This document shows, piece by piece, positions 15,433 through 21,802 of a stretch of 38,528 nucleotides of DNA; position 1 is the first letter of the stretch, and the number at the start of each line of letters is the position of its first letter. Position numbers and translations under genes: made by a program. This DNA is from a bacterium. GTDB lineage: Bacteria > Fibrobacterota > Fibrobacteria > UBA11236. The stretch is taken from positions 1 to 38,528 of the forward strand of contig OMJM01000029.1 of NCBI GenBank assembly GCA_900299345.1, in the 5' to 3' direction. The notes under the pieces were generated by a model. That model searched no databases. It had not been told where the DNA came from and worked only from the letters and a program-made list of their open reading frames with translations.

Positions 15433-17007
15433 ATGCCCGTGAGTCGTCGCAGCAATTTTTTCAGCGTTTCAATTATCTTCGGCGGAGTTTTTTCGCTGTT
15501 CGTGTTGTTTTTTTATTCCTGCTCCTTTGATTCCGGAATTCTTGAGCCTGGACCAAGACCTTTGGGAGATTTTCATGGAGTGGTTGAAGGGGGAATAAAA
15601 ACCACTTACAAGAGTCCCAGGCTTGCGGTCATGTGGCTCTCCATTTATGGCGGGACATCTCTTTGGGAGATCGGTGCAGCGAAGATTGATACCAGTGTGC
15701 CTGGTCGCGCGAGTTTCACGGGAACATTTTCGCATTTTCCCGATGACAGCATCGTGAATTCTGACGAGTTCATTCTGGGTGGTTTGTGGCTCTACGACGA
15801 TTCCAACGGCAATGGCCGTCTCGATTGGAATCCGCCGGCAGAGTACTCGAACACATTGAAAGCCATCCGGCAGGTCAAAACCAGCCTTCTGGCGGACCGA
15901 AAAACACTTTTGAATTATGCCGACACGGATTCCGTTGCCGTTGCAAGTCCAGACACTTTTTTGATCCGGACGGGTCGGCTTTTTTCAACGGGATCCACCT
16001 CAGCGGAAATTTCCAACACCGATTCGTCAGGGAAAGTATGGGATTGGAAGACTCTCTTGGGAGCCCGATTTAGGGTGTTATTCCGGCCAAACAAATGGGA
16101 GCGTTTTTTCAACCCGGATGGCAAATTGTCTTCCGGGGATTTCCTGTATACGAACAATGGACTCGATACGCTGGTCACTGCCTGTCAACTCCGACGTTAT
16201 CGAGTCCGTGCCGCATCCAAAGGCGATTTTGCGCAAGCTTTGGAAAAAGCGACGTTACACGAAGCGTTGCTCGATTCCCTGACGAAACTGGCTCAAACGC
16301 AAATAAGCGCATTTTGGCGGGATAACAGGAGCAACTCCCTTTCCGAAAACATCTTAGGTCGTTCGGATGAGGATTATATTACTTACTTCCAAAGCGGTAT
16401 GCCTTTGCAAGCGATCCAGGAAGCGGAGAAAGCAAGTGCCTTTTCCTTTTCAAAAAAGGACGGTTTGGGCGTTGGTTTTAATCTGATCGTGTGTACAAAA
16501 GACGGAAATTGCGCCTCCAAACAATGGGACGCAGGTGTTGTGGTGAAGGATTACGTTGCGCCTGTTTTTAGTCTGCCAGGGACCGCAATCCTTCTTTCAT
16601 TTGATGGTATTAAAACTAAAGTGGATTCTTCCATTAGCTTGAGTATATACCAGAATAAATATGATTGTGCATGTGACGACAGGAAGGCTTTAACTCTTGT
16701 TTCACCTACCAACACGGAATTGGGGTTGTGTTCCGCCGCTTATGGAACATTCAAACTGACTACGATCGACAGCGCATCGTTTTCGTATTCCACGGATACT
16801 CTTTCCATGAGAATCCGCTTTGTATTGCTTTCAAAAGCTACGGAATCAATACCGACGAAATACAAGCTCCTGATGGATGTTGCTGACAGACGGACCAGTC
16901 ATCCGGATTCCATGCGCTATTATGCCACTCCCAGCGAGGCAAGTGGATTCGATTTTGAACCATCCCTTAATGCCTTTCCTGATACTGGCCGCGAAAGCTT
17001 TAGGTGA
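15433..17007 (+). CDS. Large putative lipoprotein or exported protein at head of sigma/caspase locus
   Basis: No family recognised. The 524-residue product has a basic start, a hydrophobic segment at about 9-27 and a possible lipobox FYSC with Cys30. The -3 residue is not typical, so simple secretion or membrane anchoring is also possible. Residues 122-131 (DDSNGNGRLD) match a calcium-loop pattern. Two Cys pairs lie in the C-terminal half. The rest is beta-rich and Ser/Thr/Asp-rich, as in envelope proteins. It ends 4 bases before the GTG of the ECF sigma gene, so both belong to one transcript. It could be the sensor or the surface target of that regulatory unit; that is inference. Confidence 0.68.
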   Translation: MPVSRRSNFFSVSIIFGGVFSLFVLFFYSCSFDSGILEPGPRPLGDFHGVVEGGIKTTYKSPRLAVMWLSIYGGTSLWEIGAAKIDTSVPGRASFTGTFSHFPDDSIVNSDEFILGGLWLYDDSNGNGRLDWNPPAEYSNTLKAIRQVKTSLLADRKTLLNYADTDSVAVASPDTFLIRTGRLFSTGSTSAEISNTDSSGKVWDWKTLLGARFRVLFRPNKWERFFNPDGKLSSGDFLYTNNGLDTLVTACQLRRYRVRAASKGDFAQALEKATLHEALLDSLTKLAQTQISAFWRDNRSNSLSENILGRSDEDYITYFQSGMPLQAIQEAEKASAFSFSKKDGLGVGFNLIVCTKDGNCASKQWDAGVVVKDYVAPVFSLPGTAILLSFDGIKTKVDSSISLSIYQNKYDCACDDRKALTLVSPTNTELGLCSAAYGTFKLTTIDSASFSYSTDTLSMRIRFVLLSKATESIPTKYKLLMDVADRRTSHPDSMRYYATPSEASGFDFEPSLNAFPDTGRESFR

Positions 17008-17011
17008 ACCT

Positions 17012-17589
17012 GTGACGCGCATTCAATCGCCACCCCTCCTTTCTTTGCCGGTTGATACTCCTTCAGCTGGTGAAGATGGCTTGGAAGAGCTCTTCCGGAA
17101 ATATTCCAGCATGGTGTTCCGCATTTGTCTGCGCTACACCAAGAACAGGGAAGATGCCGAGGACATGGTCTCTGAAGTGTTCATGAAGGTCAGTCGCGGC
17201 ATGGAAGATTACCGGGGTGACGCAAAGCCCATGGTATGGATTTACCCCGGATTGCGGTAAACCATTGCTTGGATCATCTTCGTGGGCGGAAATCCAAGAA
17301 TGAGCTGGATCTTGAAGACTTGGACACTCAAGCGTTGCACACGTTGGACGCTCACGGTGACCGGTGTCTTGCGAAGGTCACTCTGGAGCGTATTCTGGGG
17401 AAAATCAACCCAAATACGCGAAAAATTCTTTTTTTGAGCCATGTTGAGGGTCTCACACATGGCGAAATTGCGAAAATTCTTGGAGTTACTCGTGAGGCTG
17501 TAACGAAGAAGTTGCACCGGTTTTCGGAAGAGATGAAAAAAAAGGAAAAAAATTGGGTTGATGCAGGCGAAATAGCACGATCCGGTTGA
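17012..17589 (+). pseudogene. ECF sigma factor interrupted by a frameshift in region 2
   Basis: Two overlapping frames together make one ECF sigma-70 factor. The first, from GTG 17012 with TAGGTG as ribosome-binding site, encodes region 2 (LEELFRKYSSMVFRICLRYT, then DAEDMVSEVFMKV) and stops at 17260 after MVWIYPGLR. The -1 frame resumes with RIAVNHCLDHLRGRKSK, the expected end of region 2, then region 4 with a helix-turn-helix (LTHGEIAKILGVTREAVTKKL), ending at 17589. The break is at a run of four C near 17244-17247. Removing two bases or adding one restores a normal factor. It may be an assembly error, a real mutation or a slip site. Confidence 0.85.
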
Positions 17590-17693
17590 TAGGATGGCTT
17601 TTTGAACGGAATTCGCAAATAAAAATCCCGATGAAGTGTCCCTTTTTGGCGAAAACAATCGTCTTAGTCAGTTAGGGAACAAAAGGATCTATC

Positions 17694-18437
17694 GTGAAAA
17701 AAAGACCTTCATTCTTTAAAATTGAACAGTATTTGGCAGGTGAGCTGAATGCTGCTGAAGTACGTGAATTTGAGATCCAACTTGAGACCGATCCTGGTCT
17801 AAAGAGGTATGTGCAACTCCAAAAAGGGTTGCGCTACGATGCTTCGACGACCATTGTGCAAACTCAGTTGCGCCCAGCTATGGGAGGCTTTGTTTTATCC
17901 AAGGCATGGAAGCGCATTGGTGAGAGATTGTCCCCTGTTTTCCCCCCTCAAGTGGCTTGGGCCATGGGGCTGTGTCTTTTGGCTGGTGCCGTTTTAGTTC
18001 TTTTCAGGCCTGAGAGTCTCTCAGTAGATTCTTCGGAGTCGGATTTTACGGCGAAAGGTGCCAGTGTTCCCTTTTTCCTCACTGTCGGTGGGAATGATAT
18101 TCAACCCGATCAATCAGGAACCGCGAGTGCTGGTGATACAATGAATTTTGTCTATCGCAGCTTGGCGGGACTTCATGTGCAGATTTGGTATCAGGATGAT
18201 GGCGGAGCATTGCAGTCTTATCTGGCTCCGTCCAATTCTTCGTCTTCATGGAAGGCCGCTTCCGCGTGGCGGGAAGCCAATCAGAAGGTGGTCCTTTCGT
18301 CCGACTGGAACAAGGAGTCCGTCTGGATCGTGTGGTCGGATCATGGTTTTACCTCTCAAGAGGCCAAGAAGGCACTTGAGGGTGGCCGTGCAGATGGAAT
18401 CCAAAAGACTGTGTTTCATTTCACACGGAGCCGGTAA
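17694..18437 (+). CDS. Membrane-anchored anti-sigma-like protein
   Basis: The GTG at 17694 follows AAGGA. The 247-residue product has a cytoplasmic N-terminus whose start (FKIEQYLAGEL, then FEIQLETDPGLKRYV) resembles the helical anti-sigma domain but lacks the His-Cys-Cys zinc ligands. One membrane helix spans about 87-104. A periplasmic domain of about 140 residues follows with conserved-looking GDTMNFVYRS and QIWYQDDGGALQSYLAP. That domain recalls those next to caspase genes in other bacteria; this is from memory and unproven. Its position right after an ECF sigma gene supports an anti-sigma role. It starts about 104 bases after the sigma gene and ends 11 bases before the caspase gene. Confidence 0.7.
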   Translation: MKKRPSFFKIEQYLAGELNAAEVREFEIQLETDPGLKRYVQLQKGLRYDASTTIVQTQLRPAMGGFVLSKAWKRIGERLSPVFPPQVAWAMGLCLLAGAVLVLFRPESLSVDSSESDFTAKGASVPFFLTVGGNDIQPDQSGTASAGDTMNFVYRSLAGLHVQIWYQDDGGALQSYLAPSNSSSSWKAASAWREANQKVVLSSDWNKESVWIVWSDHGFTSQEAKKALEGGRADGIQKTVFHFTRSR

Positions 18438-18448
18438 GGATTTTTGTG

Positions 18449-20059
18449 ATGAAAACAGTTTTGCGCATGCTTTTGATCGGCGTGGCGGTGTTCGTGGCAT
18501 CGCCCGCGTGGTCCAGTGTGCAAAGGCTGGCGCTTCTTGTTGGGAGCGACAGGGGCCTTCGCGGCGAACCCGTTCTTAAGTATGCAGATAGGGATGCCCG
18601 GCAGTTGGCCGAGGTATTGGGAAATTCAGGCACCTTCGACAAGGACGGGATTTATATCCTGCCGAATCCTTCTTTGGGAGAAGTGCGGTCGACGCTTCAA
18701 GAGGTCCGGGATCGCATTCACAAGATTGCCAAGTCTGGAAACGAAAGCGTGCTGCTGGTCTACCTCTCTGGGCACGGTCGAAGTGGTTCCGTTCATATTT
18801 CAGGACAGCGTTTGACCATCGATGAAATACGTGAGTACTTGGGTTCGTTGGAATCCGGTTTGAAAATTTTGATCGTGGATGCCTGCGAATCCGGTGATCT
18901 ACTTCGTCAAAAGGGCGGTCAGGTTGTGGAAACCCGCCAGGTTGAAGCGGACGATCGTCTTGAGGCCCACGGTACCATAGTTTTGAGCGCGAGCGCTCAA
19001 GGTGAAGAGGCTCAGGAGTCTGAAAAATATCAGGGGTCTGTTTTTACGCACCATATCATCAATGGTCTGCAAGGCATGGCCGACTATAACGGTGACAAGG
19101 AAGTTTCCCTGTGGGAAATGTTCCACTATGCGCGTGCCAGCACGCAAGCTGAAAAAATTCTGGGTCAACAGGGGCGCCAGAACCCGAGTTTCGATTTTGA
19201 CGTTGTGGGGCGTTCTGATTTCCCCATCGCGTATCTGTCGAAAAACCGGTCTCGTTTAGTGCTGCGTGATTTCCCCAGCGTGCCGCTGGAAGTTTATTCT
19301 GCGGGCGGCATGGAGTTGAAGAATCAGTTGTGGCTTACCGGACGAAAAGAAGTGGTGTTGCAACTGCCTTCGAACGACTATATCCTCGCCTTCGACGACG
19401 GCGACCAGGTGCGTCTTGCAGAAGCGGATCTTTCCCACTCTTCCGAAAAGGTTTTGACTCCCAAGGCGTTTCAAGCCAAGCAACGTTCCTTGGTTTATTC
19501 AAAGGGCGGTCGCGCCCTCAGTGATCAGGGGATTCAGGCCACGTTGGGTGACAATAATCCGGCGGGAGATGGCGTGTCCATGTTCGGAGGCGTGGACTAT
19601 GTGTATCGTGCGGGCAAGTACAAGCAGCTTGCCGGCATCGGTTATGGGACTGGAACTTTTGCGAATTCCGACTTGCAGATCGACCGCAAGTTCTTTTCCG
19701 CTTCTTATGGCGTAGAGCGGTCTTTGTTTCGGAAAATCCGCTGGCAGATGCTGGCAGGACCGCAATTCAAATATTTCTTCGTAAAGCAGCACATGGTGAA
19801 CAAGGTTTTGGAAGGACAGCCTGAAGAGATCGCCAAATCCTATGGCCAGATTAGCACGTCCTCCTATTCCCAGATTTTCCAATTGTCCATGCCGCTCGAA
19901 TTGGAAACCGAGATTGGCGGACGCATCCCTGCGTGGTTGTCTGTTTCTGTTTCCCCGTTCCATCAGGTTTGGTATAAGGATGCTGGTTTACAACTACAGT
20001 CGCATTTGAGTTTCCAACCGTTGGTGAATGTGTCTTTGGGCAAGCACTTCGGTTTCTAG
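18449..20059 (+). CDS. Exported caspase-like (C14) protease fused to a C-terminal beta-barrel domain
   Basis: The ATG at 18449 (after AAGGA) gives 536 residues; a GTG three bases earlier is possible. A signal peptide covers residues 1-23. A caspase p20-like domain spans about 24-260 with the catalytic dyad His109 (LSGHGRSG) and Cys146 (IVDACESGD), and the acidic ADYNGDKEVSLWE that follows in this family. A linker of beta-rich sequence covers about 265-350. The last 180 or so residues alternate polar and hydrophobic residues and end GKHFGF, like a barrel protein with a BAM signal. So the protease would sit in the periplasm or at the cell surface, tethered to the outer membrane. It is followed by a terminator. 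Confidence 0.85.
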   Translation: MKTVLRMLLIGVAVFVASPAWSSVQRLALLVGSDRGLRGEPVLKYADRDARQLAEVLGNSGTFDKDGIYILPNPSLGEVRSTLQEVRDRIHKIAKSGNESVLLVYLSGHGRSGSVHISGQRLTIDEIREYLGSLESGLKILIVDACESGDLLRQKGGQVVETRQVEADDRLEAHGTIVLSASAQGEEAQESEKYQGSVFTHHIINGLQGMADYNGDKEVSLWEMFHYARASTQAEKILGQQGRQNPSFDFDVVGRSDFPIAYLSKNRSRLVLRDFPSVPLEVYSAGGMELKNQLWLTGRKEVVLQLPSNDYILAFDDGDQVRLAEADLSHSSEKVLTPKAFQAKQRSLVYSKGGRALSDQGIQATLGDNNPAGDGVSMFGGVDYVYRAGKYKQLAGIGYGTGTFANSDLQIDRKFFSASYGVERSLFRKIRWQMLAGPQFKYFFVKQHMVNKVLEGQPEEIAKSYGQISTSSYSQIFQLSMPLELETEIGGRIPAWLSVSVSPFHQVWYKDAGLQLQSHLSFQPLVNVSLGKHFGF

Positions 20060-20079
20060 AGAACTCTCGGATCCACTTT

Positions 20080-20111
20080 AAAAAGACCTTCTCAAACGAG
20101 AAGGTCTTTTT
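20080..20111. terminator. Bidirectional intrinsic terminator after the caspase gene
   Basis: A perfect 14-base inverted repeat (20080-20093 with 20098-20111) with an AAAC loop and A/T runs on both sides. It lies between the convergent caspase and Wzi-like genes and closes the transcript that includes the sigma factor locus. Confidence 0.93.
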
Positions 20112-20149
20112 ATTTATGCACCCGTAATGTGATTTTGAAATGGGAGCTT

Positions 20150-21802
20150 CTAATATCGGAAGCGGACTTCGCCGAATGCTGTTGGAGTGGCGAGTGACGT
20201 GCCGGGTTTGCCTTTCCAGTTGTCCACCCACAATCCACCGGCCCCACCCTTGAGCTGAACGAACCGGTGCCATGACCAATTCGCTGAAAGCATCAGCTCA
20301 TGACGGTTTTCCACATCCAGATCCAGGAATTTTTTGAGATCGCTATCTGCCTTCGAGTCATGCACGTCGAAAATGGAACTTCCGGGTGATTTCAGGTCAC
20401 GTTGTCTAAAATGCCATTCAATTGTCCCTTCAATATTCCACGGCAAGGGGAAATTACAGGAGGTTGACACCGTCCGCGAGTTTGGCGGCAGCGAACTGCC
20501 CAGCAAAGCTCCATAGTTTTGCATGGCCGTGTTATGCCGGTGGTGTCCATAGACCCACGGGTCCACCTGGGCGTATTCGAAGTGCCATTCGGAAGGAAGA
20601 GCGAAAGGATCCTGCCACGAACCGCCCGCTACGAACGAGAATTTGTTGCCCCAGAAATCCAGCGGTGGGCCGCTGAAATCGTCCAGCAAAAACTCCCCGT
20701 AGAGCCGACCACGTCCCCTCCAGATCCACTCTGCATCCAAGGACAGGGCGGAATTGTCGAGATCCCCTCCCGCGTGTTCCGCGAATTTCAGCGGCACGGC
20801 GGGGAGAAAGATCGCCCACTCCGGTGTGCGCGTTCCGATGGTGAGTATTTCCGTGGCTCCCAGCCGGAATGCACCAAGGCGTACTTGCAGGCGGTGTGCG
20901 ACCAATAACGCCGCGGAATCACTCCACATGCCTTTGCGCTGGGCGATAAGCTTCACATATTCCCATCGTCCTGCAGTGACCCTCAGGCGTATTTGCGGCA
21001 AAGGAGGGCCTTCTCCGGGATAGCGGTATCCTCGCCGGTAACCGCGGGGGAACGTGGAATCCGAGCCGTTAAATCCCACCGTATCGCTTTTAGCGAGTGA
21101 GTCTGCAACCCAGAAAAAGGGATGATTACTCAAAGTGGTGTGCTGCCAGTAGCCTGGTCCCCACACGTTCCAATCTTGTCCCACTTCCAGCTTGAGGTGT
21201 TGTTCACCCACGCCTGCCACCATGCGGAAGCCATCAAAAGTGCTGACGGTTTGGGGAATGCCCTTTTGTCCCTCACGATTGGTGTTGTAAGGCAGGCCGT
21301 GCTGCGGGTCATACGTGGCGAGAAAGCGTGGCTCAGGGCTGCGCTCCATGCCAACAGTGGCGCTAGTAGTGACATAGGCCCAATCGTCGTAAGTGGCTTG
21401 CGCATTCGGCGTGAAACTTCCGAACGCGTAGAGTTCCGACGAAGGGAGGGAGTCCCGGTAATAGACTCCGGTGAAATATTCCGCCCCACCAAGTACGGTA
21501 AACGACGAATCCTCGTAATGCAGCCTTGTCCCTTGGCGCTTGCGGACGGGATCGAACTCGTTCAGAAAATGGTTCAAACGGGAGCGATCCCAGGAGTTTA
21601 GCAAGGAATCTTTTTGCCGGGCCTGTACGAGCACTTCGGCAATCTCGGATGCATCGCGTGGCAAGGTGCTGAGGAATCCGGGTGTCACCAGGCCTTTTTC
21701 TTCCAATCGGCGCAGGAAGTTCGTCACGGGATGCGAAACTTCAACTGGCATGCCGAAAAGGGCACGGCAGAGGAGCAGTAAAGCAGCGGTTTTAAGGCGC
21801 AT
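20150..21802 (-). CDS. Capsule-assembly Wzi-like outer-membrane protein
   Basis: Wzi-like proteins are 18-strand outer-membrane barrels that bind surface polysaccharide in Gram-negative bacteria. The 550-residue product has a signal peptide (residues 1-17) and the characteristic QDWNVWGPGYWQHTTLSNHP block near residue 205, with many aromatic, alternating strands, and it ends FGEVRFRY as a barrel should. The family call rests on this pattern. No capsule gene cluster is adjacent, so its ligand is unknown. It is convergent with the caspase gene across a terminator and divergent from hemE with about 76 bases between the starts. Confidence 0.75.
   Translation of the reverse strand: MRLKTAALLLLCRALFGMPVEVSHPVTNFLRRLEEKGLVTPGFLSTLPRDASEIAEVLVQARQKDSLLNSWDRSRLNHFLNEFDPVRKRQGTRLHYEDSSFTVLGGAEYFTGVYYRDSLPSSELYAFGSFTPNAQATYDDWAYVTTSATVGMERSPEPRFLATYDPQHGLPYNTNREGQKGIPQTVSTFDGFRMVAGVGEQHLKLEVGQDWNVWGPGYWQHTTLSNHPFFWVADSLAKSDTVGFNGSDSTFPRGYRRGYRYPGEGPPLPQIRLRVTAGRWEYVKLIAQRKGMWSDSAALLVAHRLQVRLGAFRLGATEILTIGTRTPEWAIFLPAVPLKFAEHAGGDLDNSALSLDAEWIWRGRGRLYGEFLLDDFSGPPLDFWGNKFSFVAGGSWQDPFALPSEWHFEYAQVDPWVYGHHRHNTAMQNYGALLGSSLPPNSRTVSTSCNFPLPWNIEGTIEWHFRQRDLKSPGSSIFDVHDSKADSDLKKFLDLDVENRHELMLSANWSWHRFVQLKGGAGGLWVDNWKGKPGTSLATPTAFGEVRFRY

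Follow-up and report, generated by a model that had tools for sequence, protein, structure and literature searches.

What connects an exported caspase-like protease with the sigma factor and the membrane protein encoded beside it? The question is raised by a plus-strand gene cluster in a 38,528-nucleotide stretch of DNA (the window), which is contig 29 (OMJM01000029.1) of a 2.24-Mb draft assembly in 91 contigs (GCA_900299345.1) from a bacterium of the Fibrobacterota (UBA11236). A preliminary description of the window had proposed four plus-strand genes in tight order ending at a strong terminator, and had suggested that the caspase could cut the periplasmic part of its membrane partner. We found the four genes at 15433-17007, about 17012-17589, 17694-18437, and 18446/18449-20059, with the terminator in place behind them. 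The arrangement of an extracytoplasmic function (ECF) sigma factor, an anti-sigma factor, and a caspase is more than chance, and the best explanation for the locus is a chromosomal trans-envelope signaling module. Within it, we favor a reading, with a probability of about 0.68, in which a Lys/Arg-specific exported caspase would activate itself and then make the site-1 cut in the anti-sigma factor, handing over to RseP. The features on which this reading depends are as follows.

17012 to 17589, plus strand: ECF sigma factor, with Pfam matches to Sigma70_r2 (2.1e-11) and Sigma70_r4_2 (3.1e-11), split over two frames here.

17694 to 18437, plus strand: putative one-helix anti-sigma factor, 247 amino acids (aa), assigned with an AlphaFold2 (AF2) model and the zf-HC2 and DUF4384 matches of its relatives, with K121 and G122 invariant.

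18054 to 18059, plus strand: predicted cleavage site of the anti-sigma factor, TA-K121 before G122, the only fully invariant columns, at the end of a flexible linker.

18446 to 20059, plus strand: exported caspase-family (C14) protease with a C-terminal OmpA-like outer-membrane barrel, 536 aa from the ATG at 18449.

18773 to 18775, 18878 to 18880, and 18884 to 18886, plus strand: catalytic His109, S1-type Asp144, and catalytic Cys146, invariant in 35/35 aligned relatives.

18911 to 18916, plus strand: predicted self-cleavage site 1 of the caspase, RQ-K155 before G156 (Cys+9), in the inter-subunit loop, with both K and G invariant (35/35).

19502 to 19507, plus strand: predicted self-cleavage site 2, YS-K352 before G353, in the linker between protease and barrel, with [KR] in 34/35 and G in 34/35.

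The last gene of the cluster encodes a protein with the caspase fold and the His/Cys dyad of family C14. It matched Pfam Peptidase_C14 (2.1e-16), starts with a segment that resembles a signal peptide by sequence, and gave an AF2 model with a predicted local distance difference test (pLDDT) score of 84. In Foldseek comparisons, the N-terminal part of the model resembled caspase-7 and caspase-9 and the C-terminal part an OmpA barrel (TM-score 0.68 on the target, E of 3e-7), while a sequence search of the PDB returned only metacaspases and, more weakly, legumains. Asp144, which is invariant and stands two residues before the catalytic Cys, forms a D-x-C motif and is the counterpart of the metacaspase S1 acid. 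Its presence would lead one to expect Lys/Arg specificity, which is the simplest reading for this caspase, with the basic P1 residue deduced from the motif alone. Orthocaspases are described as cleaving after basic residues (PMC6426788). An assignment to the EACC1-associated caspases (NF047832) was rejected at 67.2 bits against a curated cutoff of 140, as was one to an anti-phage defense system, for which PADLOC gave a weak generic caspase match (23 bits) and a marginal helix-turn-helix match (14.7 bits). The caspases of Fibrobacter have a different and longer C-terminus than the one in the window, and thus the C-terminal part looks exchangeable. Two of them (L042:6669-8969 and L050:6443-8755) carry long repeats of the INVA..VQVGAINVA type ahead of the C-terminus, possibly a beta-helix that replaces the barrel.

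The product of the middle gene is taken to be an anti-sigma factor on the basis of gene position, topology, and relatives, and would bind and inhibit the sigma factor as members of its family do. Its AF2 model has N-terminal helices, one transmembrane helix (residues 85 to 103), a flexible juxtamembrane stretch (109 to 121), and a beta-sandwich outside, the roughly 140 residues beyond the helix forming an immunoglobulin (Ig)-like periplasmic domain. This helical N-domain, single membrane helix, outside domain, and adjoining ECF sigma gene make up the layout of one-helix (class I-like) anti-sigma factors. Pfam returned no significant family match for the window protein alone. Among the relatives, an N-terminal zf-HC2 domain scored over the cutoff in L037 and L039 and below it in L045, and DUF4384 matches reached 23.6 bits, under the Pfam cutoff of 27; the window protein has neither the Cys motif of the zf-HC2 zinc site (HxxxCxxC) nor a DUF4384 match. 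For the periplasmic domain, Foldseek gave only weak Ig-like matches (best E of 1.6e-3) and no good structural neighbor. The preliminary description had named the His109/Cys146 dyad, the C-terminal barrel, and the single helix with its periplasmic domain of about 140 residues, and all of these held up, with residues numbered from the ATG at 18449; the dyad, far from lapsing in orthologs, is kept in every aligned relative.

To see how widely this gene order is kept, we can compare two samples. A caspase search over 61 genomes gave matches in 53, from which 20 loci were fetched, and in all 20 Fibrobacterota caspase loci the caspase gene was preceded on its own strand by an ECF sigma gene, the two being separated by one gene or, as in L037, by more. 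A caspase-domain profile scan over 84,980 species genomes returned 80 loci, which belong to the Fibrobacterota, Myxococcota, Spirochaetota, Acidobacteriota, Aminicenantes, and Bdellovibrionota. Overall, the sigma gene lies upstream of the caspase gene in 94/101 loci from six phyla, with the anti-sigma gene in between. These counts rule out a one-off gene order, and the arrangement seen in the preliminary description is thus not unique to this genome. The seven exceptions comprise two loci interrupted by contig ends, L116, which has an anti-sigma gene and no detected sigma gene, and four loci of the Fibrimonadales. In Fibrimonas, a sigma/anti-sigma pair bearing the [KR]-G motif described below is located on another contig than the caspase. 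In the termite-gut Fibrimonadales (L131, L133, L137, and L138), the caspase stands apart from the sigma/anti-sigma pair or there is no detectable anti-sigma gene.

The specific support for a caspase that cuts the periplasmic part of the anti-sigma factor, as had been suggested, comes from an invariant [KR]-G motif that the two proteins share. Among 25 representative anti-sigma factors (<62% identity, six phyla), K121 and G122 were the sole fully invariant columns, and their invariance was confirmed in 40 sequences. The first caspase site lies in the inter-subunit loop, a common place of processing in caspases and metacaspases. The only segments of the caspase model with pLDDT below 50 are residues 155 to 168 and 348 to 356, which hold K155-G156 and K352-G353, and K121-G122 of the anti-sigma factor lies at the end of a low-confidence linker (109 to 121). 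Residues that stay invariant where the chain is disordered are more likely to be recognized by another active site than to be needed for folding. The usual context in both the caspase loop and the anti-sigma factor is (T)RxK-G, with Arg at P3 in 29/35 caspases and 28/40 anti-sigma factors.

As a control, we took every C14 caspase of 14 genomes together with its neighborhood and counted those that the caspase profiles could place. The [KR]G at Cys+9 was present in 36/36 caspases with a sigma or anti-sigma neighbor and in 2/12 without one (p=1e-8), one of these two (L173) being located at the edge of its contig. In an enlarged set that included Myxococcota modules of the R-type clade (209 anti-sigma factors, 140 after a 70% filter), aligned blind to the motif, conservation was highest in the G column (135 Gly and 5 Ser), and the residue preceding it was Lys or Arg in nearly all of the 140. 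Four anti-sigma factors (L185, L282, L284, and L299) carry K-S rather than K-G there, which would fit a small residue at P1'. In L161, the caspase loop is degenerate (LATCHSGG) and both proteins have LKG sites.

Gene order, topology, the shared motif, and its placement in flexible loops are read from the sequence, whereas the cleavages, their order, the signal, and the target genes are inferred. At rest, the ECF sigma factor would be held by the cytoplasmic N-domain of the anti-sigma factor, as in its family, and the exported caspase would sit as a zymogen on the outer membrane, to which its barrel would tie it. A signal, for which the variable C-terminal barrel or the accessory lipoprotein encoded by the first gene is the probable sensor, may lead the caspase to cleave itself after K155, in the inter-subunit loop, and after K352, which would release it from the barrel. 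The caspase would next cleave the anti-sigma factor after K121, just beyond the inner membrane, as the site-1 cleavage, and an RseP-type protease of the cell would then cut within the membrane and set the sigma factor free. The genome does encode an RseP-type M50 site-2 protease (G000:C91:5479-6708, 1.5e-66).

Several observations weigh against this sequence of events. K121 borders the conserved periplasmic domain and might have a structural role there, and this assembly has a frameshift in the sigma gene (see below). Three reduced metagenome-assembled genomes of Fibrimonadales keep a caspase with the KG, and no anti-sigma gene was found in them, which indicates that the caspase motif does not need the anti-sigma factor. 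The caspase and the anti-sigma factor agree at P1 in 121/129 pairs (K/K 70, R/R 51, K/R 2, and R/K 6), yet this agreement is mostly the difference between two clades, and exceptions occur within the R clade, where a K anti-sigma factor is paired with an R-caspase in six cases and an R one with the K-caspase of L265. Also within the R clade, three of the four K-caspases face a K anti-sigma factor (p=0.009), perhaps through one shared event, and in the K clade L195 has switched to R in both proteins (p=0.03). Because these within-clade p-values ignore relatedness, we treat the K/R covariation as supporting only, and we dropped it as decisive evidence after it proved in the enlarged set to be mainly a clade difference with exceptions. 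A DNA-pattern search for further K-to-R switches in the Myxococcota gave only chance-like matches, and the R-type modules were therefore gathered by profile instead.

The same motif could also be read in other ways. Another Lys/Arg-specific periplasmic protease might cut both the caspase zymogen and the anti-sigma factor, which would make the caspase a co-substrate and the effector rather than the site-1 protease. Some caspases are indeed activated by other proteases, and a shared motif tells only that one specificity reads both proteins. However, the caspase keeps its H/D/C residues throughout, including the S1-type Asp144, no other protease is encoded in every module, and the third site, inside the caspase itself, best fits self-processing; an outside protease is improbable. 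The motif might instead be structural in both proteins, with the caspase merely an output gene of the sigma factor that plays no activating part. This reading would suit the position of K121, ahead of strand one of the conserved periplasmic domain, and the ECF-like promoter in front of the anti-sigma and caspase genes. It would leave unexpected, however, that the same invariant dipeptide with a P3 Arg occurs in two unrelated folds, that all three sites are in or at the edge of low-confidence AF2 segments, and that the module caspases differ at the site from other caspases of the same genomes, and we regard it as very improbable. Slightly lower still do we rank a pseudosubstrate or docking site, by which the anti-sigma factor would restrain the caspase, or the caspase would sense the anti-sigma factor, without a cut. 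An invariant motif in a flexible, membrane-adjacent segment, identical to that of the caspase loop, would be compatible with this, but a flexible K-G is the form expected of a substrate, whereas inhibitors usually keep such a loop rigid.

A further doubt concerns the sigma gene in this genome. Its identity as an ECF sigma factor, given in the preliminary description, stands, with regions 2 and 4 matched on the two halves and no region 3, but its single open frame does not, a frameshift having been overlooked. The region 2 half (17012-17257) is ended by a TAA at 17258-17260, and the region 4 half (17236-17586) lies in a different frame. In an alignment with the same-genus relative G002, two extra C in the CCCC run at 17245-17248 were the sole frame-breaking difference at this place. 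The gene is intact in G002 and others, and no frameshift was seen in the other relatives examined. Counted by first, second, and third codon position, the first half differs from G002 at 7/7/34 sites and the second half at 12/6/57, a strong third-position bias indicating that neither half had ceased to code until very recently, if at all. The split frame would suit a module that is decaying in this genome, with the sigma gene a pseudogene. We consider this unlikely, since, in comparison with G002, strong purifying selection is evident in both sigma halves and in the two genes after them, and the change sits in a homopolymer of a draft assembly of 91 contigs. The most likely cause of the frameshift is a mistake in assembly or sequencing, or else a mutation of very recent date; translational shifting at CCCC is possible and not favored.

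The remaining features of the cluster are the following.

15433 to 17007, plus strand: accessory lipoprotein of 524 aa with the lipobox FFYSC, without a known domain, present in only a subset of modules.

17637 to 17666, plus strand: ECF-promoter-like pair TGTCCC-N17-CGTCTTA ahead of the anti-sigma gene, with a putative promoter function.

20079 to 20112, plus strand: strong intrinsic terminator at the end of the operon, with a 15-bp stem (-23.6 kcal/mol, z of -5.7).

The four-gene co-occurrence that had been proposed held for the sigma, anti-sigma, and caspase genes and failed for the lipoprotein gene, which is not supported as a core member. It occurs at 6/20 Fibrobacterota loci (G002, G009, two in G006, G005, and G010), in the same place and all in the family or order of the window, and was not found at the Fibrobacter loci examined. 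Pfam was empty for the window lipoprotein and gave nothing consistent across its family. A different lipoprotein (LLLSACLEDHP) adjoins the caspase in L037:5988-7283, L038:5658-6617, and L039:4134-6179, that of L037 with weak PKD and cadherin-like matches.

Looking for a sigma-type promoter, as the preliminary description had advised, yielded the ECF-like pair before 17694, while a scan of the region for consensus sigma-70 promoters stayed at chance level. The same pair, with the same spacing and place, is found in G002, and the window's genome has 4 copies against 0 for a reversed control pattern. Its position before the anti-sigma and caspase genes would fit positive feedback. The three further genomic copies have no clear target gene, and hence we claim no regulon. 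The Fibrobacter modules (L042, L044, L050, and L070-L129) have another conserved element, GTRACACTTTT...GTGTTAC, just before the sigma gene in 36/55 upstream regions, with a spacing of 16 in 36/36. Its ends also repeat each other in inverted form (GTAACAC/GTGTTAC), around a loop that contains CCTCC; it may be a promoter, an operator, or a translational hairpin. Beyond the terminator, a convergent minus-strand gene (20150-21802) had a weak match, at 20 bits and below the cutoff, to Wzi, a protein of capsule assembly.

Operons of sigma-70 and metacaspase genes have been reported in Myxococcus, Anaeromyxobacter, Haliangium, Sorangium, Ralstonia, and Fibrobacter (Asplund-Samuelsson et al. 2012, PMC3501461). 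They show the same association of sigma-70 with a C14 caspase, Fibrobacter included, and very probably are the same modules. The account of the conserved operons in that paper presents sigma genes as their common denominator, without an anti-sigma factor, an analysis of export or anchoring, the shared motif, or a mechanism (PMC3501461). In the open-access literature we found no proposal that sigma-associated caspases cut an anti-sigma factor. What is new here is the [KR]-G motif shared by the caspase and the anti-sigma factor, which suggests self-cutting followed by cutting of the anti-sigma factor.

The proposed pathway resembles the regulated intramembrane proteolysis of RseA (by DegS and RseP), RsiW, RsiV, and RsiP in its one-helix anti-sigma factor, ECF sigma factor, juxtamembrane cut, and site-2 protease. 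The known site-1 proteases include DegS for RseA (PMC10028731) and signal peptidase for RsiP (PMC8844934), whereas here a cysteine caspase that is encoded in the operon and linked to the outer membrane through a barrel is predicted to take this role. The comparison with Craspase made in the preliminary description is apt as a functional analogy, in that a caspase-superfamily protease cuts the inhibitor of a sigma factor in Craspase and is predicted to do so here, but membership was rejected. Craspase, the type III-E Cas7-11–Csx29–Csx30–CASP-sigma system (PMC10028731), is RNA guided and uses the TPR-CHAT protease Csx29 with the soluble Csx30. The protease here, in contrast, is an exported C14 enzyme with a signal peptide and a barrel, and its partner is an anti-sigma factor with a transmembrane helix; no RAMP family match was found in this genome, and no CHAT/TPR protein or other CRISPR component in the module. 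Proteases are also encoded beside the sigma factors of the ECF54 group, whose neighbors are CHAT, subtilase, or carboxypeptidase proteins, and are proposed to control them; ECF54 lacks an anti-sigma factor, and the direct target proposed for the protease is the sigma factor (PMC8999054), unlike in the present module, which has an anti-sigma factor. With metacaspases and orthocaspases the caspase shares the C14 fold, the H/C dyad, the D-x-C acid, and, by our reading of the motif, a basic P1; it differs from them by its export, its barrel anchor, its two conserved [KR]-G sites (one at Cys+9, the other in the linker), and its sigma/anti-sigma operon.

We know of no natural job for most bacterial caspase homologs, which are often assumed to act in cell death. 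It seems to us somewhat more probable than not that the caspases of this class, in six phyla, are tethered to the outer membrane and activate themselves, that each serves as site-1 protease to a dedicated anti-sigma factor, and that their C-terminal sensors have been exchanged. The substrate and the cleavage site are named from the sequence, and the proposal can be tested directly with purified protein. If true, this would be a dedicated outer-membrane-linked site-1 protease, and caspase control of sigma factors would have arisen outside CRISPR too. It would provide a third general route by which a signal at the outer membrane reaches a sigma factor, beside DegS-type and TonB-receptor signaling, and a non-death function for bacterial caspases, many of which, where they are of this type, are predicted to be signaling proteases.

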